Below are positions 4,496 through 27,473 of a DNA stretch of 41,176 bases, piece after piece; the first letter of the stretch is position 1, and every line of letters starts with the position of its first letter. The notes under the pieces are model-generated. The model was not told the DNA's origin. It saw only the letters and a program-made list of their open reading frames with translations, and ran no database searches. Position numbers and translations under genes: made by a program. This DNA comes from a virus: positions 1-41,176 of the IMG/VR virus record IMGVR_UViG_3300027852_000082; one strand, written 5' to 3'.

Positions 4496-4535
4496 TAGTT
4501 AAACAGTAAAAATAAAAAATAAAAGGAGAAACAAA

Positions 4536-4706: not shown

Positions 4707-4743
4707 TTAAAAATTTAAAAACAAAAATAAAAGGAGAAACAAA

Positions 4744-4968: not shown

Positions 4969-4979
4969 CTCTTATAGTT

Positions 4980-5001
4980 GCTCCTCATTAAGTTGAGGAG
5001 C
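4980..5001 (+). terminator. Hairpin after the winged-helix-like gene
   Basis: GCTCCTCA (4980-4987) pairs with TGAGGAGC (4994-5001) around a 6-nt loop, 12 bp after the stop codon. No T run follows, so it may be a weak terminator, an attenuator for the gene at 5054 or an mRNA-stabilising structure. Confidence 0.45.
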
Positions 5002-5053
5002 CTCTACAAGGGTTATTATTAAGCCCTAAAAAATTATATAAGGAGGCCATAAA

Positions 5054-5515
5054 ATGGCAAAGAACCAAAAAGATGTTGAAAGTACAGATGCAGTTGAAAG
5101 TACAACAGATGTTGTAGTTGAACCTACTAAAAAGGAGCAGAAAAAAGTAGCTTACATTACTATCAAAGAATTGGTTGACGCTCAAGAAGACACAAAATAT
5201 AGAGAAGCCTTACAATTGGTAAGGCCTTCTTTGTACGGTATGCAATCGCCGGGAAGTCAATCAAAATTCATAGCGTTGATGTTAACTCAAAACGAAGTTC
5301 ATGAAAATGACATTTTCATAGAGTTAAAGATGGGTAGGAAAGAAGCCTATGGAAACATTAAAAAGCAACTAAAAAAAGCTCAACCTGACAAGCGAGTTTG
5401 GATATCTTTTGAACCTTCAACCGGTATTTACAAGGTAGAAGGTGTGGGTGCTGAACCTCCCAAAAATTGGAAAGGTTACGTTCCTATTGAAACGGAAGCT
5501 ATCGAATTACTGTAA
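5054..5515 (+). CDS. Unknown early protein next to the iteron region (153 aa)
   Basis: A 153-aa protein with a strong AAGGAGG site 7 bases before the ATG. The first 40 residues are acidic and Thr/Val-rich (likely disordered, with an imperfect repeat of VEST). The rest contains a basic helical stretch (MGRKEAYGNIKKQLKKAQPDKR) followed by a beta hairpin (WISFEPSTGIYKVEG), which could be a DNA-binding helix and wing. It stands alone between two terminators and directly upstream of the GTTAAC-rich region. An origin- or operator-binding role is therefore conceivable, but no family is recognised. Confidence 0.65.
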   Translation: MAKNQKDVESTDAVESTTDVVVEPTKKEQKKVAYITIKELVDAQEDTKYREALQLVRPSLYGMQSPGSQSKFIALMLTQNEVHENDIFIELKMGRKEAYGNIKKQLKKAQPDKRVWISFEPSTGIYKVEGVGAEPPKNWKGYVPIETEAIELL

Positions 5516-5535
5516 TACTATCCCACTTAACAATA

Positions 5536-5568
5536 ATCCCTATGGCTCACCGTCATAGGGATTTTTTT
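5536..5568 (+). terminator. Rho-independent terminator
   Basis: ATCCCTATG (5536-5544) pairs with CATAGGGAT (5554-5562) around a 9-nt loop, followed by seven Ts ending at 5568. A clear intrinsic terminator that closes the single-gene unit at 5054-5515 before the long non-coding region. Confidence 0.9.
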
Positions 5569-5628
5569 GTACTCCAATAGAATTACACGCCCTTTTCCTA
5601 CACAAATTTGTATACTAAAGCTAACTTT

Positions 5629-5870
5629 GTTAACAGTGTTAACAAGTGTGTTAACAACTTAAATTGCTTAACCCTTGCCCTGGCGCTATATAAGGCGTTA
5701 TTTTGTATTTGTTAACAATGTTAACACTGTTAACACTACATATTTCAAATACCACTTTAGCCCTTACTAACAAAAAAATATACGAGTGTTAACAGTGTTA
5801 ACATTGTTAACAAGATACGATAAGCCCGACAGGGCGTAACAAAACGAAACGGCTTGTTAACACTGTTAAC
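5629..5870. repeat. Iteron-like array of GTTAAC palindromes
   Basis: GTTAAC starts at 5629, 5638, 5650; 5711, 5720, 5729; 5788, 5797, 5806; 5856 and 5865; one more lies at 6044. Within clusters the period is 9 bp (12 bp once), close to one helical turn. The second cluster (5709-5737) and the third (5785-5813) are exact 29-bp inverted copies of each other. Flanking bases are also conserved (AGTGTTAACA / TGTTAACACT). Confidence 0.85.
5820..5850. repeat. 31-bp direct repeat, copy 1
   Basis: Begins ATAAGCCCGACAGG and ends CAAAACGAAAC. It matches 28 of 31 bases with copy 2 at 5952-5982. It lies between the third and fourth GTTAAC clusters and is G+C-richer than its surroundings. Confidence 0.8.
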
Positions 5871-5951
5871 ACTAGGTTACAGGGTAGGTTACAAACGCCG
5901 ATTTTGACAAAAAACCGTAATAACAGCACTTAAAAACAGTAACAAATCGCA

Positions 5952-5982
5952 ATAAGCCCGACAGGACATAGCAAAACGAAAC
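5952..5982. repeat. 31-bp direct repeat, copy 2
   Basis: Same orientation as copy 1 (5820-5850), 132 bp further on, with three substitutions in the middle (the ends ATAAGCCCGACAGG and CAAAACGAAAC are identical). Confidence 0.8.
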
Positions 5983-6008
5983 ACTAATTTAATGTTAATA
6001 TAACAAAA

Positions 6009-6020
6009 TTGTATATACAA
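6009..6020. repeat. TTGTATATACAA palindrome, site 1
   Basis: A perfect 12-bp palindrome. It recurs at 6142-6153, and looser forms (ACAAATTTGTATAC) occur at about 5602-5615, so it may be a second type of protein-binding site in the putative origin. Confidence 0.5.
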
Positions 6021-6141
6021 AACACAAAAAGACACAAATGCTTGTTAACACTAGTACAAGTTATAAAACTACCCTTTAGTGCGTGCTTTTTAATATATAA
6101 AATCTTTATTATGTATACTTATTAAATCCTTTTTTACAAAT

Positions 6142-6153
6142 TTGTATATACAA
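6142..6153. repeat. TTGTATATACAA palindrome, site 2
   Basis: The same palindrome as at 6009-6020, here overlapping an ACAAATTTGT palindrome (6136-6145 region) and enclosed by a 10-bp inverted repeat (AAATCCTTTT 6124-6133 / AAAAGGATTT 6152-6161). Confidence 0.5.
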
Positions 6154-6387
6154 AAGGATTTTCTAAAAATGATTACTAAATTTTGTATAAAGTTATATAC
6201 AATTTTCATTTTTTAAACACTATAATTTTAATAACCATTTAGTCTTTTATATACAGGCATATTTTTTGTATTTTTTATACTTTTTTAAAAAAGTTCTTTA
6301 CTTACTATAATAGTATTTGTATACTTATATACAATATATAAATTATAATAATAATAAAAATAAAAATATAATAAAAGGAGAAAAGCT

Positions 6388-6564
6388 ATGAAGTCACATG
6401 AAAGAAAAAAGACACCTAATTATTTTCTCACTTACGATGAGTTACCAGAAAGACAAAAACGGCACTGGTCGAGGGAAGGAAGAGAAAACTATCTTTTAAT
6501 GCAACCATCTGGAGAAATAGAAAAGATAGAATTATTTGGAAAAGTATATGAAGTAAGTGTTTAG
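6388..6564 (+). CDS. Small early protein, unknown (58 aa)
   Basis: A 58-aa basic protein, MKSHERKKTPNYF to GKVYEVSV, with AAAAGGAGAAAAGCT before the ATG. It is the first gene after the putative origin and probably starts the main early operon. A TATAAT hexamer at 6306-6311 could be its -10 box, though no good -35 box is visible. No motif recognised; the second half looks like a small beta sheet (ENYLLMQPSGEIEKIELF). Confidence 0.65.
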   Translation: MKSHERKKTPNYFLTYDELPERQKRHWSREGRENYLLMQPSGEIEKIELFGKVYEVSV

Positions 6565-6627
6565 TTTTTATTGTTATCTTACTTTGAGATAACAGGAGTG
6601 AGTGATTATAAAAAAGGAGAAGAAAAT

Positions 6628-6945
6628 ATGAATGATTTTAAAAAATATTCTGGAGCTCTTGCCCTGGAATTAGACAAGTTGAAAGCTGGAGTAGATGCAC
6701 CAACTGAAAAATGGTTAGAAGATACTTTTGGCCCAAAAAGTATCACTAATCAAATTCAAGTAATGGAGAATGAAAGAAAGAAAAGAGATAAAGAAGTGAA
6801 AATAAAAAGAAAAAGAAAGCTCGCTTTTAATCGCGAAATGGAAAGAAGAAGAACTTCTAAAGTATGGCGATTTTTATATAAAATACAGACTAAATTTTTT
6901 AGTTCGTATTTGGTATATCGTCAAAAAACAACTTTAGATTTTTAA
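6628..6945 (+). CDS. Basic helical protein, unknown (105 aa)
   Basis: Starts at the ATG at 6628 after AAAAAGGAGAAGAAAAT. The frame is open further upstream to 6571, but only this ATG has a ribosome binding site. The central part is strongly basic and helical (ENERKKRDKEVKIKRKRKL, then NREMERRRTSK), and the C-terminus is aromatic. It could bind nucleic acid or a membrane surface. No family recognised. It is followed by a terminator hairpin. Confidence 0.65.
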   Translation: MNDFKKYSGALALELDKLKAGVDAPTEKWLEDTFGPKSITNQIQVMENERKKRDKEVKIKRKRKLAFNREMERRRTSKVWRFLYKIQTKFFSSYLVYRQKTTLDF

Positions 6946-6950
6946 TATTT

Positions 6951-6986
6951 AAAGGAGAATATCTTTCATAGGTATTCCCCTTTTTT
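6951..6986 (+). terminator. Probable intrinsic terminator
   Basis: AAAGGAGAATA (6951-6961) pairs with TATTCCCCTTT (6973-6983) with one A-C mismatch and an 11-nt loop, followed by a T run to 6986. It lies just after the stop at 6945. The left arm contains an SD-like AAAGGAG with no gene behind it, which fits a hairpin rather than a ribosome binding site. Confidence 0.6.
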
Positions 6987-7026
6987 ATGTAAACAATAAA
7001 AAATTATAATAAAAGGAGAACGAAAA

Positions 7027-7473
7027 ATGTATCTAAATAAACAAGTACAAAATATTTGGGATAACAAATGCACATCAGATGAAACAATTGATTTTATGGT
7101 ACAACAAGGGATTAAATTTATTGATATTTGTAATAAGTATATTTGTTGTCACACTTTTAAAGGTAAATATAAATTTGTTCTTCCGCCCTTAATAAAAACG
7201 GAAAATGGTCTTGAAACATGGGAAACAATTAAACATCCATTTTTTATTACTGGTTGGGATAGAATAACCGTTTTTTACACTTATAGAAGAGAAAATTGTT
7301 ATTCTGGATGGGTATTGTATTCTCATCCTGTACTTGGATTAAAAGCAGAACATGATAATCACTTGTATACTGATCTCGCAGGACATGGGTATGGCTATAA
7401 ACTTTTGTCCGCTTCAAATATGAAAAAAATGGCTGAAAAATTGTCTCTTGAAAAGGAGTATCCCTTAATTTAA
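7027..7473 (+). CDS. Unknown early protein (148 aa)
   Basis: A 148-aa protein, MYLNKQVQNIWDNK to KEYPLI, with AAAAGGAGAACGAAAA before the ATG. Rich in aromatic residues and Cys (CNKYICCHTF, ENCYSGW); the centre looks like a beta-rich domain (ITVFYTYRRENCYSGWVLY). No signal peptide. It precedes the lipoprotein gene by 13 bp and shares its AAAAGGAG leader style. Family not recognised. Confidence 0.65.
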   Translation: MYLNKQVQNIWDNKCTSDETIDFMVQQGIKFIDICNKYICCHTFKGKYKFVLPPLIKTENGLETWETIKHPFFITGWDRITVFYTYRRENCYSGWVLYSHPVLGLKAEHDNHLYTDLAGHGYGYKLLSASNMKKMAEKLSLEKEYPLI

Positions 7474-7486
7474 AAGGAGTAATATT

Positions 7487-7948
7487 ATGAAATTTCTTAT
7501 TGCTTTATGTTTATTGCTTTTTGGTTGCTATGAAGCTTATGATGAAGAGAATAATTACGCTTTTTTAAATATTATTGAAGTAACTTCATCCGAAGATGCT
7601 TTACATTTTGTATATGACTATCTAACTTATAAGTCAGATAAAGAAATACATCATCAAGAAGATTACTGGCAATCTCCTGAAGAAAGTTATTTTTTAAAGA
7701 CAGGAGATTGTGAAGATTATGCTATATTTTTTATGTACTTGTTACATGAAAAATTAAATATTGATTCACATCTTATTTTGTTAAGAGGTAAAAATGATCT
7801 AATACGGGGCCATGCTCTTTGTTTTGCAGAGGGTAAATTTTATGATCCCTCGATAAACCAAATAGTCGATTTAGATTTATTGTTGAACCGATTTTATATA
7901 TATAAATTTATTTTTTATCGTGAAGTACTATTATTGTGCGCTAATTAA
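7487..7948 (+). CDS. Transglutaminase-like cysteine protease-fold lipoprotein
   Basis: A 153-aa protein with a short lipoprotein signal: MKFLIALCLLLFGC, lipobox LFGC with the lipidated cysteine at residue 14. The mature part carries a transglutaminase-like catalytic triad pattern: Cys75 in TGDCEDYAIFF, His109 in RGHALCF and Asp120 in FYDPS. Bacterial transglutaminase-like cysteine peptidases use this GDCEDY motif. It should be exported and anchored in the host membrane, facing the periplasm or cell wall. A phage lipoprotein made early could block superinfection or modify envelope proteins; both are inferences. Ribosome binding site AAAAGGAGTAATATT. Confidence 0.75.
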   Translation: MKFLIALCLLLFGCYEAYDEENNYAFLNIIEVTSSEDALHFVYDYLTYKSDKEIHHQEDYWQSPEESYFLKTGDCEDYAIFFMYLLHEKLNIDSHLILLRGKNDLIRGHALCFAEGKFYDPSINQIVDLDLLLNRFYIYKFIFYREVLLLCAN

Positions 7949-10170: not shown

Positions 10171-10482
10171 ATGGAAATAAAAAAGAAGGAGGTTATTACT
10201 TCCATCAATATAGAGGGAGAAGAATACTTCTCCCTAAGAGATTTTGCTTATTTAGTTAATAGATCAGAAGCGAATGTTCGCCATTTATTCAATAAAGGAA
10301 ATAAATTAAGAAAACTTCGTGTAGCTTACTTTGGAAAAACGGCTTTTATCCCTGCAAAAGAACTGTTAGAATTTCCTTTTTTACTTAGAGGAAAAAATCC
10401 TTTTAACATAAATGGCATCGTAGAAAAATATCGTTTAGAAAATGGAGAACTTCAAAAAACGGAGGAGGTTTATGATAAGTGA
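10171..10482 (+). CDS. Helix-turn-helix protein upstream of primase (103 aa)
   Basis: Residues about 19-70 read as a MerR/excisionase-like winged helix: YFSLRDFAYLVNRSEANVRH, then the wing and AFIPAKELLEFPFL. These small proteins recognise short DNA sites. The stop overlaps the GTG start of the primase (GTGA), so the two are made together; an origin-recognition or loading role is plausible. The ATG follows the previous stop by one base, with GGAGAATTGAT before it. Confidence 0.65.
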   Translation: MEIKKKEVITSINIEGEEYFSLRDFAYLVNRSEANVRHLFNKGNKLRKLRVAYFGKTAFIPAKELLEFPFLLRGKNPFNINGIVEKYRLENGELQKTEEVYDK

Positions 10483-12086
10483 ATCTCAACCAAATCCAAG
10501 TGCAAGAATTTAAAAATTATTTTTCAGGTTCACAGCACAATTTTGGAGAGTTCACTTATAATTTTAATAAAATAAATTCAAAGAAAAAGACGGAAGGTGT
10601 AGGCAAAACGGCGACTAATCAGTTAATCACCATTAAAAATTACCAAAACCACTTGGAAGGAATAAAAGGGCTCGGCGTCATCCCTTTAGATGAAAATAAT
10701 AAAAGTTCTTTTTTTGTTATGGACATCGATCTGTATGATGTAGATTACACTTTGTACATTCAGGGAATAGAACGAGGAAATTTCCCTCTTGTTCCTTTTC
10801 GTAGTAAAAGTGGTGGATTACATCTTTATTTGTTTTTTAAATCTCCAGAATCTAATGTGCAAAAAGTTATAGAATTCATGCAAAAATTGGCTTTTTTGCT
10901 TTCTATAGATTCTTTAGTAAAGGAAAAGAAAAAATCTCGTTTAGAAATTTTCCCAAAACAAACTTTTCTTAATAAAAAAGAAAATGCAGTTGGGAATTGG
11001 ATAAATTTACCTTATTATAATGTACAAAACACTCAACAATATGCTATTCAAAATGATAAAGCATTATCTTTAAACGAGGCTTTATCACTAATAAAAGAAA
11101 AAAGAACAACTTTAGAAAATTTAGAGAAATTTATTGACGAATTAAATTTTAATGATGCGCCACCTTGTCTGCAAAAAATTTATATTTTGAATTCATTAAA
11201 TGAAGATTCAGGTAGAAACAATTTTTTATTTTCCTTTGGCGTTTATTTAAAAAAGAAGAATGAAGACTTATTTGAATTTAATTTAAAAGAGGTAAATGAA
11301 ACATTGAACTTTCCTTTACCTGTTAAAGAGATTGAAACAACTATTTTAAATTCTTTAAGAAAAAAAGATTATATTTATAAATGTAAAGAAGATCCTTGTT
11401 TATCTTTTTGTCATAGAGGTATTTGTAAACAAAGAGAGTTCGGTATAGGTAAAGACGAAGGTTACTTTTCTTCTGTAGAATTTGGTCAACTTTATCAGTA
11501 TAAAACAAAACCACCATACTATGAATGGAATATAAGGCCACAGAGCGCAGATCCATGGTCTAAAGTAAGGTTTAAATCAGAAGACGAGATAATTAAACAG
11601 GATGCAGTTTTAAGACTTTGTATGCGAGAATTAAGAGTTGTGCCTTCAAAGTTAAAACAATTTGAATGGCTTAAAATTTTAAATCAATTTTTAAAAGAAA
11701 TGAAAATTGTAGAAGTTAGTGACGAGGACGATACATCGGCCTTTGTATTATTTAAAATTTATCTATTAGAATTTTTAACTGGTCGTATTATGGCACAAAA
11801 AAAGTCTCATATTGCTATGGGGAGGGCCTACTTTGAATCTGAAAATGAGATTTATTACTTCCGGATAAAAGATTTTATTCGGTTTTTGTATAACGACAAA
11901 CAATTTAGATTTATGTCGCCGCAAGACACTCATGGAGCTTTACGAGAATTAAAAGGTTTTTCCAAAACTATAAGAACAGAAGATAATAAGCACATGAGAA
12001 TAGCATGCTTATATAAAAAAACTTTGGATCAATTAGCCGATGATAAGTTTATCGATCCTGTTTTTTCTAACGAAGAACAATTCTAA
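10479..12086 (+). CDS. DNA primase of the archaeo-eukaryotic (AEP) superfamily
   Basis: A 535-aa protein starting at GTG (GGAGGAGGTTTATGATAA before it). The N-terminal 200 residues carry the AEP signature: MDIDLYD with metal-binding Asp82 and Asp84, then SKSGGLHLYLFF (sxH-type motif, His115) and LEIFPKQ followed by GNWINLPYY. This order resembles TOTE-type primases. A Cys cluster around residues 295-310 (CKEDPCLSFCHRGICK) may bind zinc. No helicase motif is fused to it, so the replicative helicase must be another protein. It would make primers for the family A polymerase encoded downstream. Confidence 0.8.
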   Translation: MNLNQIQVQEFKNYFSGSQHNFGEFTYNFNKINSKKKTEGVGKTATNQLITIKNYQNHLEGIKGLGVIPLDENNKSSFFVMDIDLYDVDYTLYIQGIERGNFPLVPFRSKSGGLHLYLFFKSPESNVQKVIEFMQKLAFLLSIDSLVKEKKKSRLEIFPKQTFLNKKENAVGNWINLPYYNVQNTQQYAIQNDKALSLNEALSLIKEKRTTLENLEKFIDELNFNDAPPCLQKIYILNSLNEDSGRNNFLFSFGVYLKKKNEDLFEFNLKEVNETLNFPLPVKEIETTILNSLRKKDYIYKCKEDPCLSFCHRGICKQREFGIGKDEGYFSSVEFGQLYQYKTKPPYYEWNIRPQSADPWSKVRFKSEDEIIKQDAVLRLCMRELRVVPSKLKQFEWLKILNQFLKEMKIVEVSDEDDTSAFVLFKIYLLEFLTGRIMAQKKSHIAMGRAYFESENEIYYFRIKDFIRFLYNDKQFRFMSPQDTHGALRELKGFSKTIRTEDNKHMRIACLYKKTLDQLADDKFIDPVFSNEEQF

Positions 12087-12102: not shown

Positions 12103-12276
12103 ATGGACGATTATAAAATGAATGAATATTTATTGTACATTACAATTTATACAAGTACAATTCTTGCTGTAATTATTTTTTTAGTGATATGTTTTCATCA
12201 TAGAAAAATAAGTACACGTTTAGAAAAAGAACTTAAAGAAACTAAAAAAGACGTTATGTTAAAGAGACTAAAATGA
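12103..12276 (+). CDS. Small single-span membrane protein (57 aa)
   Basis: I take the ATG at 12103 (AAAGGAGATTATAAA before it). One transmembrane helix at about residues 9-32 (YLLYITIYTSTILAVIIFLV) is followed by a basic cytosolic-type tail (HHRKISTRLEKELKETKKDV), giving an N-out/C-in topology by the positive-inside rule. Its end overlaps the helicase start by 4 bases. A membrane anchor inside a replication operon could tether the replication complex, but this is speculation. Confidence 0.65.
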   Translation: MDDYKMNEYLLYITIYTSTILAVIIFLVICFHHRKISTRLEKELKETKKDVMLKRLK

Positions 12277-13718
12277 CTAATGTAAATATGATTTTTGGCG
12301 CACCAGGATGCGGAAAGACTACCCGACTCCTTTTTTTATTAGAGAGTTTATTACAGGTTGGGTTGCCCCCAGAAGAAATAGCCTTTGTCTCTTTCACAAA
12401 AAAAGGTTGCTATGAGGGCAGGGATAGGGCTATACAAAAATTTAATCTTACAGAAAAAAACTTTCCTTATTTCAGAACATTACATTCTTTAGCATTTAGG
12501 GAATTAAATGTAAGTAAGTATGAAATGATATCTAAAAAAGACTATAAGAAATTTGGGCAGGCGTTGGGTATGTCGTTTGCTGGATACTTTACAGAAGATT
12601 TTATAAATAGTAAAGACGACAAATATTTATTCTTTTGTTCCCTTGAAAAAAATAACCCTGCTAAAGCTAACCAAATCAAAGATTTAGATTTGGAAGGTAA
12701 AAAGTTTTCATGGGTAAAAGAAAATTATGCGAGGTATAAAAAAGAAATAGGTATACTTGATTTTGACGATTTACTGTTAAACTTTGTGCAGAGAAATTTA
12801 ACTATTCCAGTGAAAGTTGTTTTTATAGACGAAGCACAAGATTTAACTACTTTACAATGGCGTTTTTGTGATACAGCTTTTAAGAATTGCAATAAAGTTT
12901 ATGTTGGTGGAGATGATGATCAGGCTATTTATGAATGGAACGGCGCTGATGTACATCATTTTTTACAGTTATCTAAAATAAGCAGATCTATAGAAATTTT
13001 AGATAAATCTTATAGACTGAAAAGTAATATTTTAAAAATAGCCAAAGGTATTTCTAAACAAATTAACTATAAAATTGAAAAAAACTTTTCTCCTGCATCT
13101 AATGGAGGAGTACTTTTATTTTATAATGACTTTAAACAAGTACAAATAAATAATGAAGAAAGTTATTATTTTTTGTCAAGAAATACTTATCACTTAAATC
13201 AATTTAAAAGTCACCTTATGAATCTTGGAGTTGTATTTTTTTATAAGAATAAAATTAGTGTAAGTATAGCTTTATATAAAGCTATTTTACTGTATGAAAA
13301 TTTAAGAAAAAGAGATGTATTTGCCGTGGATAGAGAATTAAAATTATTACCCTACTTGAAAAAAGATAGAGTCAAAGGTGCTTCATGGAATAAAGCCTTT
13401 GCTCTTACTATTGAAGAAAAGGATTATTATTTTAATTTGTTTAATAACAATGTCACACTTACAGATATACATAACTGTAAAATACGTGTCTCTACAATAC
13501 ATGGCGTTAAAGGTGGAGAGGCAGACAATGTTATATTTACTTTAGATATAACTAAAAGAGTGTATGAAACGTTAAATAAAAGTGAGGAGGATTATGATTC
13601 TGAGTTAAGATGTATTTATGTTGCGTTAACAAGGACAAAAAAGAATTTATATATTATAGATTCTAAATCTAAATTTGGTTATGATTCAATAATAAAGGAG
13701 GCTTATAATTGTGAGTGA
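12273..13718 (+). CDS. UvrD/PcrA-like superfamily 1 DNA helicase
   Basis: A 481-aa ATP-driven 3'-5' type helicase. Motifs in order: Walker A GAPGCGKTT (9-17), motif Ia AFVSFTKKG, motif II DEAQD (186-190), motif III GGDDDQAIYEWNGA (212-225), motif IV/R YRLKSN, motif V STIHGVKGGEADNVI and motif VI YVALTRTKKNL near the C-terminus. It is shorter than cellular UvrD (about 720 aa), lacking most of the 1B/2B inserts. Coupled by overlap to the membrane protein before and the glycosyltransferase after. It is the most likely candidate for fork unwinding in this phage. Confidence 0.9.
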   Translation: MTNVNMIFGAPGCGKTTRLLFLLESLLQVGLPPEEIAFVSFTKKGCYEGRDRAIQKFNLTEKNFPYFRTLHSLAFRELNVSKYEMISKKDYKKFGQALGMSFAGYFTEDFINSKDDKYLFFCSLEKNNPAKANQIKDLDLEGKKFSWVKENYARYKKEIGILDFDDLLLNFVQRNLTIPVKVVFIDEAQDLTTLQWRFCDTAFKNCNKVYVGGDDDQAIYEWNGADVHHFLQLSKISRSIEILDKSYRLKSNILKIAKGISKQINYKIEKNFSPASNGGVLLFYNDFKQVQINNEESYYFLSRNTYHLNQFKSHLMNLGVVFFYKNKISVSIALYKAILLYENLRKRDVFAVDRELKLLPYLKKDRVKGASWNKAFALTIEEKDYYFNLFNNNVTLTDIHNCKIRVSTIHGVKGGEADNVIFTLDITKRVYETLNKSEEDYDSELRCIYVALTRTKKNLYIIDSKSKFGYDSIIKEAYNCE

Positions 13719-14628
13719 AGTTTATAAAAAGTTACAAAATAAAAATTATTTGATTGGAGTAGCAACAAGAAATAGATCTTATTTAATCACAAATAGAAAA
13801 GGTCTTTGGCGATATTTTGATCCAAAAGAGTCCTTTTATCCAATTAAATTATTTATTAGAGAAATAGAACTAAAAAGTTATGAAAAAAGTTTTCCAAAAG
13901 AAAATATTGAACTTGTTCCAAATAATTTTTTACTTCCAGACAAGAGACAATTTATGGTAGATTATTGTGTTTCTCGTAATATAGAATATTTATTTATGCT
14001 TGACGATGATATAACTTTGTTCTATAGAGATAAAAATTTGGCTTCTAAATATTGTTCTAATTATGAAAAGTTTATGGAAAAAGATAGTCTTAATAAGTTA
14101 CTTTTAGAAAGTATTCTTTTATGTAATGAACAATATCCCATAGGTGGAGTTGCCTTAAAATTTGGAAGTTTTACTAAAAGTTTTATGTTTGAAAAAAATT
14201 CTTTTGTTATGCAATATATTTGTATTTATATTCCAACTTTACAAAAAGAAAATTTAGATTTTAGAGGACTCAAGACTCAATTTATGAGTGATAGATATAT
14301 TAACATAGCTTTATTGAGTAAAGGATACAATACTTTGATTAATTGTAGATATGCCGTAGACGATGGCGGAATTGGTAGAAAAGGTGGTTGTCAAGATTTT
14401 GAAAAAGAAAGAATTGAATTTCTTCATAACGAAGCTGCAAAAAAATTGCAGCAAGCCTTTCCTAATTACGTTTCTTTAGTAAAGAAAAATACGGCTATAA
14501 ATTATTGGAAAAAACCACGTTTGGATAATACTGTACATTGGAAAAGATTTTTACGATATAAAGAATTAAAGTATATACCAAAAAAAGAAGGTTTACGAAT
14601 TCTTAAAAATGGAGGTATTTCTTTATAA
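13711..14628 (+). CDS. TAGT-like DNA base glycosyltransferase, copy 1
   Basis: A 305-aa protein starting at GTG (AAAGGAGGCTTATAATT before it). It has a GT-A-type layout: an N-terminal Rossmann-like strand (LIGVATRNRSYL), a DDD metal/nucleotide-sugar motif at 98-100 (LFMLDDDITLFYRD), and a C-terminal part with SDRY (192-195) and NCRYAVDDGGIGRKGGC. This order matches the TET-associated glycosyltransferases found by Iyer, Aravind and colleagues in phages with hypermodified DNA. It would transfer a sugar to a modified base in DNA. Closely related to the next gene. The carboxylate usually expected before DRY is Ser here (MSDRY versus MEDRY in copy 2). Confidence 0.6.
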   Translation: MSEVYKKLQNKNYLIGVATRNRSYLITNRKGLWRYFDPKESFYPIKLFIREIELKSYEKSFPKENIELVPNNFLLPDKRQFMVDYCVSRNIEYLFMLDDDITLFYRDKNLASKYCSNYEKFMEKDSLNKLLLESILLCNEQYPIGGVALKFGSFTKSFMFEKNSFVMQYICIYIPTLQKENLDFRGLKTQFMSDRYINIALLSKGYNTLINCRYAVDDGGIGRKGGCQDFEKERIEFLHNEAAKKLQQAFPNYVSLVKKNTAINYWKKPRLDNTVHWKRFLRYKELKYIPKKEGLRILKNGGISL

Positions 14629-15506
14629 TGAAAAAATTATTATCAGAATTTAATTATTGTATATTTGTTCCTTCAAGAGCAAGAAAAGATTTTATAGAAA
14701 AAAGAATAGGTGTTTGGAGATACATATCAAAAGAAAATCCTCAATATCCATTCAAATTAGTTTTACGAGAAAAAGAAATTGATGATTATTATTCTGTTGG
14801 TTATGCTGGAAAAATTTTAACAGTTTTAAATAGTTCTTCTATTGCAGATAAAAGACAAGCCATAATAGATTTTTGTATACAAAAAGAAATAAAATATGCT
14901 GTTGTAATAGATGATGATGTTTCTTTTCACTATAGGGATGAAAATTTGTCTTCTAAATACACTTCTAAATTTGAAGAAATTGTAAAAAGAAATATAGTAG
15001 ATAAAATTTTATATGAATCTCTTCAATTATGTGGAGAAAAGTATCCTCTTATTGGATTACCATTAAAACAAGGAAGCTTTGGATTAAAATATACTTTTCC
15101 AAAAAATATTCCTATTATTCGTTTTGCATGTTACTGTATACCAATTATAAAAAAAGAAAAAATCTTCGCCAATGGATTAAATTCACCAATCATGGAAGAC
15201 AGATATTTACAACTTTCTTTATTAAATAAAGGATATCGTTCCTTAAGTAATTGTAGATATGCCGTAGAAGATATGGGGAGCAATATTAGAGGTGGGTGCA
15301 GTGTTACGAGAACAATAGAAATTCAAAATAATGCTGCGCGGGAATTAACAAAAAGTTTTTCGAATTATGTTAAATTAAAAGTAAAAGATGATGGGCATTG
15401 GAAAGAACGTAGATTAGATTGTAGAATATCTTGGAAAAAATTTTTAAAGGCAAATGAATTGCCTTACCTTCCTAAAAGTGAAGGTTTAAAACTTATAGGA
15501 GAATAA
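14628..15506 (+). CDS. TAGT-like DNA base glycosyltransferase, copy 2
   Basis: A 292-aa paralogue of copy 1, start overlapping its stop (TAATG). Motifs: IFVPSRAR at the N-terminus (12-19), DDD at 95-97 (VVIDDDVSFHYRDENLSSK), MEDRY (189-193), NCRYAVEDMGSNIRGGC (208-224). The PSRAR motif, missing in copy 1 (ATRNR), is the more typical TAGT form. Shared blocks run over the whole length, so this is an in-place gene duplication, and the differences suggest different acceptors or sugars. It belongs to the modification cassette with the next five genes. Confidence 0.6.
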   Translation: MKKLLSEFNYCIFVPSRARKDFIEKRIGVWRYISKENPQYPFKLVLREKEIDDYYSVGYAGKILTVLNSSSIADKRQAIIDFCIQKEIKYAVVIDDDVSFHYRDENLSSKYTSKFEEIVKRNIVDKILYESLQLCGEKYPLIGLPLKQGSFGLKYTFPKNIPIIRFACYCIPIIKKEKIFANGLNSPIMEDRYLQLSLLNKGYRSLSNCRYAVEDMGSNIRGGCSVTRTIEIQNNAARELTKSFSNYVKLKVKDDGHWKERRLDCRISWKKFLKANELPYLPKSEGLKLIGE

Positions 15507-15507
15507 T

Positions 15508-16401
15508 ATGGTAGAAGAAATAAATCAAGATGAATTTGAAAAAAATTTATATAAATTTTTAAACACCGCCATAGAACGTCATAATATTTATATAAATAAA
15601 GAACGAGGTGTACAAAAACCATGGACTACTGATGAAGTGTATAAACAATTTTTCTTTTGTAACGTATTTCGTCAATATGATAAATGTAGTAAATGGATTA
15701 TAGAAAATATTATACCCATTGTTGAAGTTCAAGAAAGATGGGATTTAATTATATTGTTTAGGTTTATATCTACAATGAACCTTTTTCTTGAAATTCAAAA
15801 AACTTGTAATTTATATGACTTACAAGGCATACAATCTTTTTTGTGTAACAAAAAAGCAAGAGGGGAAAGATTATTTTCAAGTTGTTTTATAAGAAATCCC
15901 AGGATAGTTGGTGGTTGGACAGATACTTACAAGGTCCCCTTTCATTTAATTAAAGCTATTAAAATGAATGGAGCTATGGAAAAACAAATTCGGAAAAATT
16001 CTTTAGAAAGTTTGGTAGATTATTTAAAACAATTTCCAGGAGTAGGTGGATTTATGGCTTATGAATATGCTTGCGATTTAGAATATTCAAATCACTTTAA
16101 CCCTACCGATAAATTAACATGGGCCAATCCTGGTCCAGGAGCGCGAAAAGGATTAAGTTTACTTTTACATGGTTGTATTAAAAAAATAAATTTAAAACTT
16201 TGGTCAGAATACACACCTATAATCTTTAAAGCTATGGAAAAAAGATTTAAAAAAGAGTTTCCAAAGAAAATTATTACAATGAGAGAAGTTGAACATTGGC
16301 TTTGTGAATTTCAAAAATATGTCAAATATAAAAACTTTATGAATGGTGAAAATAGGATCAAACATAGAAAATATAATGGAGTTCTAAATGATACCCAATA
16401 A
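15508..16401 (+). CDS. 5-hmdU DNA kinase helical domain / aGPT-Pplase2-like DNA hypermodification protein
   Basis: A 297-aa helical protein with the features of the family first named alpha-glutamyl/putrescinyl thymine pyrophosphorylase (DNA-glycosylase-like fold) and later the helical domain of 5-hydroxymethyl-dU DNA kinases. Visible signatures: FFFCNVFRQYDKCSKWI (48-63), LFRFISTMNLF, FLCNKKARGERLF, a helix-hairpin-helix-like LKQFPGVGGFMAYEYACDL (173-191) and TWANPGPGARKGL (204-216). Members act on 5-hmdU in phage DNA during thymidine hypermodification. There is no P-loop here, so the kinase half is absent or encoded elsewhere. Ribosome binding site AGGAGAATAAT. Confidence 0.75.
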   Translation: MVEEINQDEFEKNLYKFLNTAIERHNIYINKERGVQKPWTTDEVYKQFFFCNVFRQYDKCSKWIIENIIPIVEVQERWDLIILFRFISTMNLFLEIQKTCNLYDLQGIQSFLCNKKARGERLFSSCFIRNPRIVGGWTDTYKVPFHLIKAIKMNGAMEKQIRKNSLESLVDYLKQFPGVGGFMAYEYACDLEYSNHFNPTDKLTWANPGPGARKGLSLLLHGCIKKINLKLWSEYTPIIFKAMEKRFKKEFPKKIITMREVEHWLCEFQKYVKYKNFMNGENRIKHRKYNGVLNDTQ

Positions 16402-17455
16402 AGAAATAGTTTTTCAACTACGAAAAAAACATTTATTAGTGTTTGATGAACCTAATCAAGTGAGATTAGAAATCGTAAAAGGATGTAATTTAAATTGTTC
16501 TTTTTGTGGTGTCACTAAAGATACAATTCAATTTATGACAATAGAAACGCTTAATAATATTTTAAATGGACTAACTAATAAAGTAAAAAGAATTGAATTT
16601 GCTTTACATGGAGAACCTTCACTTCATCCAAAATTAAATTTATTTGTAGAAAAAGTAAAAAAGGTTTTTCCCCATGTTCAATTGTATATGATAACAAATG
16701 GAGAAATTTATAAAAAAATAGGATTTGAAAATATTTTAAGTATTTTTAAATCTGGAATAAATTTTCTACAAATAGATTTATACAATGAAACTTCTTATAA
16801 TTGGTTTCAAGAGAATTTAATAAAGTTTTCTAAAAAATTAACTACAGAAAATATTGTCATTAGCAATTACGAAATAGAAAATTCTCTACCACATTCTTAT
16901 AAAAGTGGTACTGTAAAAGTACTTCTTTGGGGAGATAGAAGAATGGCTTTTAACGCTCCAAAAAACATTACAAAAAATCCTCATAATTGGGGAGGGAATC
17001 TACCATTAAAACAATGGTCTAAACTATTTTTAGATAAGTTAAAAGATTTTCCTATTGTTAAAAGATGTGCTGAACCTTATAAATATATGACTATTCTTTA
17101 TAATGGAGACGTTCTTATTTGTTGTCATGATGGAGCAAAAACTACAATATTAGGAAATTGTAATGAACAAAGTACTATTGAGATTTGGCAAGGTGAAAAA
17201 TTTCAACAACTCAGACTTCTTCTTAGAAATGGTTTAAGAAAAAATTTACTACCTTGCTTTTTATGTAATACCAAAAGTTTAAGAGTAGGACTTTATCCTT
17301 ATTGGGGAAAAGAATATTTTTATGAAGAATGTCTAGATACTATAAGTGAAATTAGTGTTATAAATATAAAAGAACCTCTATATTTTAATTTAATAGAATA
17401 CCATGAAAAAATTAAACTTTTACCAAAACATATTTTAAATATATTAAGGAGATAA
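16388..17455 (+). CDS. Radical SAM-SPASM enzyme of the modification cassette
   Basis: A 355-aa protein. The radical SAM cluster motif CNLNCSFC gives Cys33, Cys37 and Cys40 for a 4Fe-4S cluster that splits SAM; FALHGEPSLHP (72-82) is the SAM-binding GGEP-type motif with the first Gly replaced by His. The C-terminal half has a SPASM-like Cys set (Cys227, Cys245, Cys246, Cys258, Cys290, Cys293) with the ILYNGDVLICCHDG segment, giving auxiliary cluster(s). It overlaps the preceding hypermodification gene by 14 bp. Radical SAM enzymes in related phages rearrange the amino-acid side chain of a modified thymidine; the same type of step is the likely role. Substrate unknown. Confidence 0.8.
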   Translation: MIPNKEIVFQLRKKHLLVFDEPNQVRLEIVKGCNLNCSFCGVTKDTIQFMTIETLNNILNGLTNKVKRIEFALHGEPSLHPKLNLFVEKVKKVFPHVQLYMITNGEIYKKIGFENILSIFKSGINFLQIDLYNETSYNWFQENLIKFSKKLTTENIVISNYEIENSLPHSYKSGTVKVLLWGDRRMAFNAPKNITKNPHNWGGNLPLKQWSKLFLDKLKDFPIVKRCAEPYKYMTILYNGDVLICCHDGAKTTILGNCNEQSTIEIWQGEKFQQLRLLLRNGLRKNLLPCFLCNTKSLRVGLYPYWGKEYFYEECLDTISEISVINIKEPLYFNLIEYHEKIKLLPKHILNILRR

Positions 17456-17458
17456 GTT

Positions 17459-17983
17459 ATGGAATTACAAGATTACTTACACAAAAATGTCGCGTTAAGA
17501 AACATTAAAAGATTTAGTATGGAGACTGTATTGCATCCACAAGATTTAGCAAGTCACAATTACGGCGTTGGAACTTTGTTTTATTTGTTATGTAAAAATG
17601 CAAATATAGAAGTCACATCTGAAGAATTATTTTTTGTTTTGCAACATGATTTTATAGAAGTTTATACAGGGGATTATAATAAAAAAATAAAAAATAAACT
17701 TAAAGTGATTGAAAAGGCTTGGGCTACAATAGAAAAAAATACTGTTCCTAAAAATTTACGTTGCTATACGGATAAAGAAATAGAATTTATTTTGAGTAAG
17801 GATCAAGTGATTATATTTAAACTTGCTGATGCATTAGAGGCTTTTCTTTATTGTAAAGTTGAAATGTTTAGCGGCAACCGTTTTTTTGAAAATATTTTCC
17901 TGTATTATAAAAAAATTGTGTTTGATTTAATAACGCAATTAAAAAAATTAAATATAGCGACAGGAGTAGAGGAATGGATTTAG
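17459..17983 (+). CDS. HD-domain 5'-deoxynucleotidase (YfbR-like)
   Basis: A 174-aa metal-dependent phosphohydrolase. Metal ligands are visible as His33 (ASHNY), His63-Asp64 (LQHDFIEVYTGD) and Asp124 (FKLADALEAFLYC), the order seen in YfbR-type dNMP 5'-nucleotidases; length is also right (about 190-200 aa for YfbR). It would dephosphorylate a deoxynucleoside monophosphate. In phages with replaced bases such an enzyme removes the normal nucleotide (for example dTMP or dCMP) so that the modified one is used. Ribosome binding site AAGGAGATAAGTT. The stop overlaps the next start. Confidence 0.75.
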   Translation: MELQDYLHKNVALRNIKRFSMETVLHPQDLASHNYGVGTLFYLLCKNANIEVTSEELFFVLQHDFIEVYTGDYNKKIKNKLKVIEKAWATIEKNTVPKNLRCYTDKEIEFILSKDQVIIFKLADALEAFLYCKVEMFSGNRFFENIFLYYKKIVFDLITQLKKLNIATGVEEWI

Positions 17984-18750
17984 TTAAAAATAATTTAAAT
18001 GACATTTATTATGAATTATTAAAATCTTTATTGTACGAATCTGAATATATGTCCACAACTAAAAAAGGCGACCTCATCAATGAGTTTATAAATATTTCCT
18101 TTGTATTGAAAAATCCTATAAATTGTTTTGCTACAATAAGAAATATGTCTTTCGATTATTTAAAAGGGGAGATTGAGTTCTATTTAAGTGGTAGTCCTTT
18201 TCTTAAAGATATAGTTAAGTATGCGAAGTTCTGGGAAAATGTAACCGACGATGATAGAAGTGTTAACAGTAATTATGGAAAACTTTTATTACATGATAGA
18301 AATTTACATAATTACACTCAATTTGAATATGCAAAAGATATGTTGTTAAAAAATTCAGATAGTAAGAAAGCAGTAATGACAATTTATAGTAAAGAAAACG
18401 CTTTTAAATCAAATGATAATCCTTGTACAATGTATTTGCAATTCTTTATTAGAGATTTTAAATTAAATTTATTTGTAAAAATGCGTTCTTCTGATATTTG
18501 GTTTGGAATACCTTATGATGTTCCTTTTTTTGTTTTAATTCAAAATAAAATGCTTATAGAATATAATCAAGAAATAAAGGATTATAAAATAATGTTGGGT
18601 AATTATTTTCATCAAGCAGGAAGTTTGCATTTATATCAAAGAAATTTTGTTTCTGCTCGTAATATAATAAATACGAATACGGATGTTATTTTTACACATC
18701 AAAAAGATTTATTTAATGAATATATTATAAAACCTTTATTACAGAAATAA
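17974..18750 (+). CDS. Thymidylate synthase/dCMP hydroxymethylase family enzyme (pyrimidine hydroxymethylase)
   Basis: A 258-aa protein that aligns by eye with T4 dCMP hydroxymethylase (gp42) and thymidylate synthases. Landmarks: NSNYGKLLL (98-106), catalytic Cys151 in NPCTMYLQF, MRSSDIWFGIPYD (170-182) and GSLHLYQRN (216-224). The residue that reads the pyrimidine 4-position is Asp182, where thymidylate synthases have Asn and T4 gp42 has Asp; this points to dCMP as substrate. The phosphate-binding Arg pair is Lys131-Lys132 (SDSKKAV) instead. Expected reaction: hydroxymethylation of dCMP (or dUMP) with methylene-tetrahydrofolate. It supplies the modified nucleotide for the cassette. Confidence 0.8.
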   Translation: MDLVKNNLNDIYYELLKSLLYESEYMSTTKKGDLINEFINISFVLKNPINCFATIRNMSFDYLKGEIEFYLSGSPFLKDIVKYAKFWENVTDDDRSVNSNYGKLLLHDRNLHNYTQFEYAKDMLLKNSDSKKAVMTIYSKENAFKSNDNPCTMYLQFFIRDFKLNLFVKMRSSDIWFGIPYDVPFFVLIQNKMLIEYNQEIKDYKIMLGNYFHQAGSLHLYQRNFVSARNIINTNTDVIFTHQKDLFNEYIIKPLLQK

Positions 18751-18754
18751 AAAC

Positions 18755-19198
18755 ATGTTAAATTTAAATAAATTATTTAAAGAAACTTGGTTACAAGCTG
18801 AAGAATCAACTTGTTTAAAAAAGAAGGTTGGTGCTTTATTAGTGTCTTTTGATTCTGGCGTTATTTTAGGAAAGGGTTGTGGCATGCCTGACACACCTTG
18901 CAAAGTTTGTGTAAGAAAAACGTATACATGGACTCAGGATGGGTGCTGGTCGATACATGGAGAAGTCCGGGCTATTTTTGATGCATTAGAAAAACAAAAT
19001 ATTTTTACATCCAATTCATATTTTTCAGATTGTTTTATGCTTACCACTCATGGTCCTTGCGATCAGTGTATAAAATACATGGTTCATTTTAAGATACCAC
19101 TTATTATTTATGAGGAAGAATATAAAACAAATTATTTTAAATGGAAAAATAAAATTCTTATTTATCAAAAAAATTACTATATGGAGAACATATTATGA
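18755..19198 (+). CDS. dCMP/cytidine deaminase-like zinc enzyme
   Basis: A 147-aa member of the deaminase superfamily. Zinc/catalytic motif HGE (His68, Glu70 in SIHGEVRAI) and PCDQC (Cys102, Cys105) are intact. Extra cysteines (Cys42, Cys49, Cys52) could form a second zinc site, as in phage dCMP deaminases. It would convert dCMP to dUMP. No good ribosome binding site precedes the ATG four bases after the previous stop, so translation is probably coupled. Its partner before it is the hydroxymethylase and its stop overlaps the polymerase start. Confidence 0.8.
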   Translation: MLNLNKLFKETWLQAEESTCLKKKVGALLVSFDSGVILGKGCGMPDTPCKVCVRKTYTWTQDGCWSIHGEVRAIFDALEKQNIFTSNSYFSDCFMLTTHGPCDQCIKYMVHFKIPLIIYEEEYKTNYFKWKNKILIYQKNYYMENIL

Positions 19199-21024
19199 TT
19201 TTAACTTATTATAATTATGACAAAGAAAACATAGCCATAGACATTGAAACTAAAGATCCTTTTTTAAAAGAAAAAGGTAATGGAGTTTTTAGAAAGGACG
19301 GTTATATCTTAGGTGTATCATTTTCTAATGGTCGTTTAGCAGAATATTATCCTATTAATCATCAGGACACTGAACCAGAACAAAAGGAAAAAAATTTAAA
19401 GTATATTACAGAACAATTACAAAATTACAATTCTAAAATCTTTGCTAATGGTCTTTATGATTTGGATTGGTTTATCAATTTTGAGAATTTAACGGTTAAT
19501 GGTTCTTTTGAGGATGTTCAAATAGCCGAACCCTTGTTAGACGAATATAAAAAATCTTATTCTTTAAATAATTTATCACAAACTTACTTGGGTAAAATAA
19601 AATTTGATACTGAATTAAAAGAATATAGTAAAAAAATGGAGTGGAAAGATACAACTAAAAATTTATGGCGCATGCCGGCTTACATAGTAGAAAAATATGC
19701 TGCTCTGGATGCGCAACTGACGTTTCAAATCTTTCAAAAACAAAAACCTTTATTGAAGAAGGAAGGTTTAGAAGATATATATAAATTAGAAATGGACCTA
19801 TACCCATTATTATTACAGATGAGAAGGGAAGGTGTGTATCTTGACAAAGATAAATTACTGAAAGCAGGTTTAGAATTATCAGATATAGCTTATGACTTGC
19901 AACAAGAATTAAATACTTTAGCGGGATTTGATATAAATGTAAACAGTGGAAAGCAATTAGCGTCACTTTTTAGTAAGTTAGGCCTGCCTATTGTCTATGG
20001 AGAACCTACTGATTTGATGATGCAAAAAGGTATTATGAGAGGCAATCCAAAATTTGATAAGGCGACATTATCAAATTTAAATAATAACTTTGCTAAAAAG
20101 ATTTTAGAGGCAAGGCATATAACCACTCTATTAAATATGTTTATTATACCCTACCCGGAATTACTTTGTGATGAAAAAATACACTGTAATTTCAACCCTT
20201 TAAGAAGTGATAATTATGGAACTGTAAGTGGAAGATTTTCTTCTTCTAACCCTAATCTGCAACAAGTTAGTGGTAAAAATGAAGATGAGTATATTCATTC
20301 TGACAGCGAAATTTTAAATGGTTTAGTTGTCAGAAAATTATTTGTTCCAAAAGAAAATTGTGACTGGATAAGATATGATTGGAATCAAATAGAATATCGT
20401 TTAATAGCTCATTATGCTATAGGCCAAGGTGCTGATGATATTAGGTCCAGATATTTAAAAGATCCAAATACAGACTATCACACTGAATTAGGTGAAATGA
20501 CCGGGATCGCTAAAAGAACAGACATTAAGCGTTTAAATTTTGGAACAGCTTATGGAATGGGTTATCAAAAAATGGCCAGTCTTTATGCTTGGAATTTAGA
20601 AGAAGCCTATGCAGTTTATCAAACTTATCATAAAAAAGTTCCCTTTATAAAAGAAACATCTTCTCGAGTAGCTTTAAAAGCAAAAAGAAAAGGTTATATT
20701 CAAACCATATTAAAAAGAAAAGCCCGTTTGCCGTCAAGGGATAAGGCTTATGTTATGTTTAATCGTTTAATACAGGGGAGTGCAGCAGACTTAATGAAGA
20801 AAGCTATGGTAGACGCTTACAAACAAGGTATATTCAATGTACTCGCACCACATTTAACTGTTCATGATGAGTTGGATTGCAGTAAACCCAATACCAAAGC
20901 AGGTGACGAGGCAAGTTTAGCGTTAAAAAATGTAATGGAAAATTGTGTTAAATTACAAGTTCCCATAATAGTGAGTTGTGAAGTAGGTCCGTCCTGGGGA
21001 GAGTTAACACCCTTGGAATTTTAA
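19195..21024 (+). CDS. DNA polymerase, family A (replicative)
   Basis: A 609-aa PolA-type enzyme with proofreading. Exo motifs: Asp16/Glu18 (AIDIETKDP), NGLYDLDW (85-92) and Tyr168/Asp172 (YAALD), all present, so 3'-5' exonuclease should work. Polymerase motif A is YDWNQIEYRLIAH with catalytic Asp395 (DWNQIEYR rather than the usual DYSQIELR), motif B is RTDIKRLNFGTAYG (Arg441, Lys445, Phe449, Tyr453) and motif C is VHDE (His557-Glu559). No 5' nuclease domain, as in T7 polymerase. The start overlaps the deaminase stop by 4 bases. The Phe in motif B predicts discrimination against dideoxynucleotides. Confidence 0.93.
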   Translation: MILTYYNYDKENIAIDIETKDPFLKEKGNGVFRKDGYILGVSFSNGRLAEYYPINHQDTEPEQKEKNLKYITEQLQNYNSKIFANGLYDLDWFINFENLTVNGSFEDVQIAEPLLDEYKKSYSLNNLSQTYLGKIKFDTELKEYSKKMEWKDTTKNLWRMPAYIVEKYAALDAQLTFQIFQKQKPLLKKEGLEDIYKLEMDLYPLLLQMRREGVYLDKDKLLKAGLELSDIAYDLQQELNTLAGFDINVNSGKQLASLFSKLGLPIVYGEPTDLMMQKGIMRGNPKFDKATLSNLNNNFAKKILEARHITTLLNMFIIPYPELLCDEKIHCNFNPLRSDNYGTVSGRFSSSNPNLQQVSGKNEDEYIHSDSEILNGLVVRKLFVPKENCDWIRYDWNQIEYRLIAHYAIGQGADDIRSRYLKDPNTDYHTELGEMTGIAKRTDIKRLNFGTAYGMGYQKMASLYAWNLEEAYAVYQTYHKKVPFIKETSSRVALKAKRKGYIQTILKRKARLPSRDKAYVMFNRLIQGSAADLMKKAMVDAYKQGIFNVLAPHLTVHDELDCSKPNTKAGDEASLALKNVMENCVKLQVPIIVSCEVGPSWGELTPLEF

Positions 21025-26213: not shown

Positions 26214-27473
26214 ATGACAACTGAAGAATTATTGCAAGACTTAACCGATATGGCCATAAAATTAAAAAACAGTGAAGGCGCACTAAACAAGATTTGGATA
26301 TTACAAGAATATCCTTCTTGTAGAACAATTTTAAAACTTGTTTATGATCCACAAATTAAATTTAACGTTACTACTGAAGGTCTTTTAAATTATAGAGATA
26401 ATAGTGACTATGAAGGTCAAATTATAAAAGACACTTTAATAGAATTTTTCGATAATCTTTCTAATTTGAGTGGACACAAATTATATAATTATTGTTTAGA
26501 TTTTATTTATACATATTCTAAACACGAGACTTTAATTTTATTGTTATTGGATAAAAAATTAAAGTGTGGTGCTTCTGTTAAAACAATTAACAAGGCTTGG
26601 CCAAAGTTAATCCCTGAATTTAATGTTCCATTAGCAAAAAAATATGAACATGGATTATATGACTTTGAAAAAAATGACTGGTATGTAAGTCAAAAAGTAG
26701 ATGGGATTAGATGTTTGGCTTTTATTTTTATGTCTGGAGAAATTGAATTTTTTTCAAGACATGGCAAAGAACTGTTTACTTTAGACAAAGTTAAAGTAAC
26801 CCTTAAAGATTCCTGGAAAGGTTGTAAAGGGATTATTTTAGACGGAGAAATTTTTAAAGATTCTTTTAAAGTCATTAGCAGCGAGATAAGAAGAAAAAAT
26901 CATACTATACAAAAGCCTGAATTTTTAATATTTGATTATTATACAATCCAAAGTTTTTATTTAGGAGAAGATTATTTAGATGATCATTTAAATTATGACT
27001 ATTATACAAAGTATCTATATTTAAAACGTAACTTATTAGAAACGGATACAGTAAAAATTTTGCCGCAAACACTAATATATTCAAAAGACCACTTCCAAGA
27101 GATTTTTTCTAAAATACCTTCAAACTGGGAAGGTCTTATGTTAAGGAAAGATGAGGCTACAGATTTTAAAAGAAGTAATAATCTTTTAAAAGTAAAACGT
27201 TTTCAAAAAGACACGTTTAAAGTTAAAGATATAAAAGTAAGTAAAAAAATAATAAATGGCGAAGAAAGAACTTGTTGCGGTTCTATAGAAATTTTATACA
27301 AAGGTCAAGTAGTAAGTGTCGGTAGTGGTTTAAGTGATTTACAAAGAATTACATGGTATAATCGCCCCAATCTTATTACAAACAAAAAAATAATTGTAAA
27401 ATATTTTTCTGAAAGTTTTGATAAAAATGGTAAAGTTAGTTTGTTGTTTCCTACTTTGTATGAAGTTTTATAA
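26214..27473 (+). CDS. ATP-dependent DNA ligase
   Basis: A 419-aa ligase joining nicks at the fork. The adenylation motif KVDGIR gives nucleophile Lys161; further motifs are LDGEIF, FLIFDYY (IIIa), WEGLMLRKDE (IV) and LLKVKRF (V), then an OB-type C-terminal domain. The first 140 residues form an extra helical N-terminal region. Ribosome binding site AAAGGAGATGGTTAA. Transcribed as its own unit after the repeats; its last 6 bases overlap the convergent fibre gene with no terminator between. Confidence 0.9.
   Translation: MTTEELLQDLTDMAIKLKNSEGALNKIWILQEYPSCRTILKLVYDPQIKFNVTTEGLLNYRDNSDYEGQIIKDTLIEFFDNLSNLSGHKLYNYCLDFIYTYSKHETLILLLLDKKLKCGASVKTINKAWPKLIPEFNVPLAKKYEHGLYDFEKNDWYVSQKVDGIRCLAFIFMSGEIEFFSRHGKELFTLDKVKVTLKDSWKGCKGIILDGEIFKDSFKVISSEIRRKNHTIQKPEFLIFDYYTIQSFYLGEDYLDDHLNYDYYTKYLYLKRNLLETDTVKILPQTLIYSKDHFQEIFSKIPSNWEGLMLRKDEATDFKRSNNLLKVKRFQKDTFKVKDIKVSKKIINGEERTCCGSIEILYKGQVVSVGSGLSDLQRITWYNRPNLITNKKIIVKYFSESFDKNGKVSLLFPTLYEVL

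Follow-up and report, generated by a model that had tools for sequence, protein, structure and literature searches.

The IMG/VR virus record IMGVR_UViG_3300027852_000082 is a linear contig of 41,176 bases (analysed here at its full length and referred to as the window) in which genes for TerL, portal, tape measure, and baseplate proteins flank an early block comprising primase, helicases, family A DNA polymerase (PolA), and ligase. Within this early block, seven plus-strand open reading frames (ORFs) abut or overlap one another at positions 13711-19198, and a first-pass annotation of the sequence read them as a DNA-hypermodification cassette of seven adjoining genes between a helicase and a polymerase. 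The ORF coordinates agree with that layout, as both the upstream UvrD-type helicase gene and the downstream PolA gene overlap the seven-gene block. The genes and their best profile matches are as follows.

12273..13718, + strand: UvrD/Rep-type helicase, upstream border (PF00580, 1.8e-28; phrog_1967, 3e-66); same neighbour in contigs L002, L005, L006, and L086
13711..14628, + strand: TAGT_a, GT-A glycosyltransferase with a GTG start and DDD at residues 98-100 (PF20691, 7.7e-5; phrog_842, 2e-19)
14628..15506, + strand: TAGT_b, GT-A glycosyltransferase with DDD at residues 95-97 (PF20691, 5.9e-4; phrog_842, 8e-27)
15508..16401, + strand: stand-alone HMUDK_hel, the helical partner of 5-hydroxymethyldeoxyuridine (5-hmdU) DNA kinase, with no P-loop (PF18723, 7e-45)
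16388..17455, + strand: radical S-adenosylmethionine (SAM) enzyme with a SPASM domain and CNLNCSFC at residues 33-40 (PF04055, 2e-8; PF13186, 1e-13)
17459..17983, + strand: YfbR-like HD nucleotidase or deoxynucleoside triphosphate hydrolase (PF12917, 6e-14; phrog_7076, dATP triphosphohydrolase, 7e-12)
17974..18750, + strand: deoxycytidine monophosphate (dCMP) hydroxymethylase-type enzyme of thymidylate synthase (TS) fold with catalytic C151, T152, and D182 (PF00303, 6e-17)
18755..19198, + strand: dCMP-type deaminase with HGE and PCDQC zinc motifs (PF00383, 3e-10)
19195..21024, + strand: PolA, downstream border (PF00476, 3e-58); same neighbour in the relatives

With the HMUDK_hel and hydroxymethylase proteins as queries, four further contigs were recovered (L002, L005, L006, and L086) that share approximately 40-60% protein identity with the window and have the same gene order, with parts swapped, between the same helicase and PolA neighbours. 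Because this order is kept in four other contigs, the block is more than a chance grouping; it is real and conserved. Constant in the resulting clade of five are the helicase, one TAGT, HMUDK_hel, YfbR, the hydroxymethylase, the deaminase, and PolA. The swapped parts are the radical SAM enzyme, which is a B12-binding one instead of the SPASM type in L002 and L086, and the number of copies, with a single TAGT in L005 and two TAGTs plus two SPASM enzymes in L006. The five members form one branch of the HMUDK_hel tree (support 100/100). It should be noted that L086 (DQIQ01000064.1, positions 1-7433) lies on a scaffold binned into the metagenome-assembled genome of a Thermoplasmata archaeon; its block is either carried by an archaeal virus or the scaffold was mis-binned. 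A search of the block for promoters and terminators gave no clear excess over shuffles.

Among solved chains, the protein encoded at 17974 is closest to T4 dCMP hydroxymethylase (1b49, 6e-23) and next to the CMP hydroxymethylase MilA. When residues were compared on an alignment numbered by Escherichia coli TS, C146, T147, and D177 were present in all five clade enzymes, and T147/D177 also in 76 of 78 other relatives. T4-type gp42 has T and D at these positions, while the deoxyuridine monophosphate (dUMP) hydroxymethylases of Pseudomonas phage M6 and SPO1 have C, N, and N at 146, 147, and 177, as do all 71 readable enzymes from the 80 HMUDK_hel loci surveyed below and three reference phages. 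In an eLife 2021 study (PMC8670742), positions 177 and 147 were the best separators of phage contigs with modified cytosine from other contigs. The window enzyme thus combines the catalytic Cys with the T-even signature and has Asp at 177, where a pathway of the M6/ViI type calls for Asn. Since the T147/D177 signature is shared with T4 gp42 and with cytosine-modified contigs, the parent base is most likely 5-hydroxymethylcytosine (hmC) rather than a thymine derivative. The earlier assignment of this gene to an enzyme making a 5-hydroxymethyl pyrimidine stands as to family (PF00303), with the qualification that T147/D177 is of the dCMP type.

The deaminase and HD protein likewise belong to the families first proposed for them (PF00383 and PF12917); the former matches deoxycytidylate deaminases in the PDB (1e-4) and the latter YfbR (5e-5) and DatZ (1e-3). 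A deaminase gene adjoins the D-type hydroxymethylase in most relatives; in the survey of 80 loci, no deaminase was seen close to HMUDK_hel. In modified contigs, dCMP deaminase domains accompany the hydroxymethylase-type enzyme (PMC8670742). Two further contigs have, between helicase and PolA, a single ORF that joins hydroxymethylase to deaminase (L008:10001-11206 and L009:3034-4272), and no glycosyltransferase or HMUDK_hel was recognised near the fused ORF. A distant second lineage has HMUDK_hel, a D-type hydroxymethylase, and a deaminase in a row (L081:4906-6900, also L082 and L083), preceded by a dUTPase-like gene and with no glycosyltransferase recognised nearby.

The two glycosyltransferases are 41% identical to each other and both match the T6-type family phrog_842 strongly. 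The AlphaFold2 model of TAGT_b (predicted local distance difference test score, pLDDT, 93) has the UDP-sugar GT-A enzymes LH3, TarP (6H1J), and RmlT as nearest Foldseek neighbours, which agrees with the description of the T6 TAGT itself as a GT-A enzyme whose group is sister to GT2, the latter with a TarP entry as its representative (PMC13216743). With a predicted GT-A fold, a DxD-type metal motif, and membership of a T6-like family, the pair can be accepted as the TAGT-type glycosyltransferases first annotated, despite PF20691 scores under the curated cut-off. The T6-type TAGT attaches a second glucose onto glucosyl-hmC (PMC13390438, PMC13216743). In a tree, the clade TAGTs form their own branch, apart from hmdU-linked TAGTs.

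The HMUDK_hel assignment of the 15508 gene was borne out at 154 bits against a PF18723 cut-off of 25, and the protein carries the invariant residues of the family (F182, D190, G209, G211, G215, C266, E267, and K270). These signature residues are identical whether or not a kinase is encoded at the locus. Its AlphaFold2 model (pLDDT 92.8) had no match in a fold search of the PDB, and in BFVD it resembled predicted HMUDK_hel, aGPT-Pplase1, and amino acid:DNA transferase (ADDT) proteins. Chains of the ADDT family have been solved in the PDB, one of them deposited as a glycinyltransferase. The link to ADDT was seen solely by the BFVD fold search; for kinship at the level of sequence, hhalign gave one short motif only. 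The protein had been cast as an enzyme that builds a side chain, which it probably is not. It resembles a DNA-acting subunit indifferent to its partner, or a transferase-fold protein, that perhaps, judging from its associations and fold, binds a hydroxymethyl pyrimidine in DNA and presents it to a kinase or a glycosyltransferase; it is also possible that HMUDK_hel is itself catalytic. A TAGT-HMUDK_hel gene fusion, which would have been direct proof of partnership, was not found among the surveyed ORFs.

The PF04055 and PF13186 matches confirm the radical SAM-SPASM call, and the enzyme has both the CxxxCxxC motif and the SPASM cysteines. It had no match among 50,697 phage records. Each of the five clade members retains a radical SAM enzyme, with two classes represented among them. 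The nearest solved chain is BtrN (9e-12, matching the SPASM part only), a radical SAM dehydrogenase acting on a sugar-like alcohol. Because the SPASM part is nearest to BtrN, it is plausible that the window enzyme works on an attached sugar.

The first-pass annotation saw neither a P-loop 5-hmdU kinase nor a TET/JBP oxygenase, and both absences from this contig were borne out. In a profile search with M6 as positive control, no PF18748 kinase was found in the window, nor in L002 (54 kb), L005 (59 kb), and L006 (66 kb), and no PF18724 ADDT in the same four contigs, again with a positive M6 control. As the record has no completeness estimate, absence from the window alone is weak evidence. A kinase elsewhere in the genome was sought in the window and related contigs and not found; in a P-loop pattern scan of the window and the three relatives, the matches were to helicases, of packaging type, or spurious, and none qualified as a kinase candidate. 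Additionally, the complete 50.8 kb genome of Brevibacterium phage LuckyBarnes gave no match to the PF18748 kinase or to the PF18724 ADDT. No PF12851 TET/JBP protein was found in the window, L002, L005, L006, or LuckyBarnes, none of which supplies a positive control for that profile. The TAGT of T6 functions without TET.

The neighbourhood of HMUDK_hel was surveyed in 80 IMG/VR loci, those most similar to the LuckyBarnes protein among 550, with windows of 9 kb on each side and many of the contigs being fragments. An M6-type kinase was present in 11 of the 80, TAGT in 28, and a SPASM radical SAM enzyme in 15; TAGT or SPASM occurred in 37, and in no case (0/80) together with the kinase. The chance of such a zero overlap is approximately 0.002 after redundancy is reduced at 90% or 70% identity, with a kinase profile that had M6 as its only seed; in nACB2 the P-loop candidate is a different one. 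Kinase presence switches at least five times along the HMUDK_hel tree. Kinase-less HMUDK_hel loci are common in the survey. Ten unassigned neighbour genes of the remaining loci were also searched; the matches obtained were to GT4-type glycosyltransferases, to FkbM and other methyltransferases, and to DUF932, and several of the ten had none. The kinase-less loci with such neighbours (L118, L123, L140, L142, L167, and L121) probably represent further sugar-type base modifications.

Several known systems come close to the cassette. Phage M6, whose thymidine hypermodification set makes 5-NedU, shares HMUDK_hel, a radical SAM enzyme, and a TS-fold hydroxymethylase with the window. In M6, however, the hydroxymethylase is of the dUMP type, and the radical SAM enzyme is of a different family and shares one stretch with individual genes for an ADDT, a pyridoxal phosphate (PLP) enzyme, the P-loop 5-hmdU kinase, and HMUDK_hel. 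The window differs in carrying TAGTs, a deaminase, and a hydroxymethylase of the dCMP type. The T-even (T6) glucosyl-hmC pathway shares the dCMP-hydroxymethylase signature, a dCMP deaminase, and a TAGT-family glycosyltransferase (PMC13390438, PMC13216743), and its first glucose is added by a GT-B alpha-glucosyltransferase (PMC13216743). The window, in contrast, has two TAGTs together with HMUDK_hel and a radical SAM enzyme. To the best of our knowledge, neither of the latter two is known in T-even phages. The cassette therefore mixes enzymes known from T4-like and from thymine-modifying phages that are not known together in this form. Nor is the broader combination unique: TAGT and HMUDK_hel, with or without SPASM, occur without a kinase in many uncultivated phages and in LuckyBarnes. 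Genes 38-41 of the latter encode, one after another, a hydroxymethylase-fold protein, a pair of TAGTs, and a stand-alone HMUDK_hel, but the hydroxymethylase is of the N/N (dUMP) type and no deaminase or radical SAM gene adjoins. Six survey loci (L144, L155, L156, L170, L172, and L180) have HMUDK_hel, TAGT, and SPASM beside a hydroxymethylase, with PolA nearby and no kinase; they differ from the window in a dUMP-type enzyme and the lack of a deaminase, and their identity to it, where measured, is approximately 27-28% for the radical SAM enzyme and 25-28% for TAGT.

Together, the family calls and the conserved gene order support a role in DNA hypermodification, and the reading favoured here, with moderate confidence, is that the cassette makes a glycosylated, radical-SAM-tailored hmC in the phage's own DNA. 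First, the 17974 enzyme would, to judge from its residues, turn dCMP into 5-hydroxymethyl-dCMP (hmdCMP). Second, the deaminase would share out the dCMP pool, like T4 cd, and the HD hydrolase would trim a canonical nucleotide. Third, a kinase, either host-borne or encoded on a missing part of the genome, would raise hmdCMP to the triphosphate for incorporation by PolA. Fourth, HMUDK_hel would bind the DNA and present the hydroxymethyl base to the TAGTs, one of which would put a sugar on the hydroxyl while the second adds another or serves a different subset. Finally, the radical SAM-SPASM enzyme (B12 type in two relatives) would modify either the sugar so added or the linking carbon.

Several observations weigh against this scheme. 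The PF20691 scores of the window TAGTs (23.2 and 20.3 bits) fall under the curated cut-off of 27.5, which TAGT relatives in L002 and L006 pass. In the survey, HMUDK_hel goes only with dUMP-type enzymes; it is otherwise tied to hmdU, and we know of no precedent for its use on cytosine. The docking role assigned to it derives from association and fold. Further, hmdCMP would require a deoxynucleoside monophosphate (dNMP) kinase, and none of the T4 gp1 type was found by a crude P-loop pattern in the window and three possibly fragmentary relatives. Lastly, the pairing of hydroxymethylase and deaminase may be explained by T4-like pool sharing and also by conversion of dCMP to hmdCMP and then to 5-hydroxymethyl-dUMP (hmdUMP).

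This last possibility is the basis of the best-surviving alternative, an hmdU derivative formed by a new route in which the deaminase would produce hmdUMP from hmdCMP, and HMUDK_hel and the TAGTs would act on hmdU. Such a route would fit the exclusive association of HMUDK_hel with dUMP-type enzymes elsewhere in the survey, the attachment of the deaminase to D-type enzymes (adjoining in most relatives, fused in L008 and L009) and its absence from the 80 surveyed loci, and the second lineage represented by L081-L083; it could also accommodate the missing dNMP kinase, as the host thymidylate kinase might handle hmdUMP. However, T4 makes hmC with the same enzyme pair, deaminases and D177 enzymes mark cytosine-modified contigs (PMC8670742), and the clade TAGTs branch apart from the hmdU-linked ones, and we regard the route as unlikely, albeit one to be taken seriously.

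The other explanations fare far worse. Ordinary thymidine hypermodification of the M6/ViI type, with the kinase and ADDT on a missing part of the genome, could be entertained in view of a linear, possibly fragmentary contig and of the place of HMUDK_hel in the M6 set; the lack of PF18748 and PF18724 matches in clade contigs of 41, 54, 59, and 66 kb and in the complete LuckyBarnes genome (M6 control positive), the P-loop scan, and the dCMP-type hydroxymethylase make it very improbable. Little credence can be given to a plain T6-like glycosyl-hmC with HMUDK_hel and the radical SAM enzyme as relics or in unrelated roles, for although the glycosyltransferase family is T6-like and the hydroxymethylase T4-like, every HMUDK_hel signature residue is kept and radical SAM enzymes of two classes are retained in five of five clade members. 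Activity of the glycosyltransferases and radical SAM enzyme off DNA (on virion glycans or the host surface), with the hydroxymethylase, deaminase, and HD protein serving nucleotide metabolism, would suit GT-A folds similar to those of glycosyltransferases for wall teichoic acid and collagen, but is hard to credit: the TAGT family is T6-type, the gene order with hydroxymethylase and polymerase is fixed across five contigs, and 28 of the 80 loci in the survey link TAGT to HMUDK_hel.

A wider interpretation is offered tentatively, as possible though doubtful: HMUDK_hel may be a general subunit for docking on hydroxymethyl-pyrimidine DNA whose kinase or glycosyltransferase partner has been swapped repeatedly and which here moved from uracil to cytosine, yielding an undescribed, kinase-free type of glycosylated hmC whose sugar or linker a radical SAM enzyme rebuilds. 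The findings suggest that this domain, despite taking its name from a kinase, does not depend on one, and that uncultivated phages widely harbour a second large class of HMUDK_hel hypermodification loci, centred on glycosyltransferases together with methyltransferases or radical SAM enzymes. LuckyBarnes offers a cultured, kinase-free test case, and residues 147 and 177 a test for cytosine versus thymine chemistry. The clade also provides candidate DNA-tailoring radical SAM enzymes without a relative in the phage collection searched.

Elsewhere in the window, the primase encoded at 10479-12086 has a TOTE-type domain of the archaeo-eukaryotic (AEP) kind and accompanies a family A polymerase, and a short protein with a signal- or lipobox-like start and a transglutaminase-like (DUF553/BTLCP) domain (7487-7948) is odd for an early phage region. 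The ORF at 27468-28997 contains tandem repeats centred on 'SPDGITWT' and 'SVCYGNGLFVAVA' and is likely a tail fibre or adhesin. A tail-associated ORF of 1373 residues (36987-41108) sits at the contig edge; GC content is approximately 0.41 at 38001-40000 versus 0.26-0.35 elsewhere in the window, and this ORF was possibly acquired recently.

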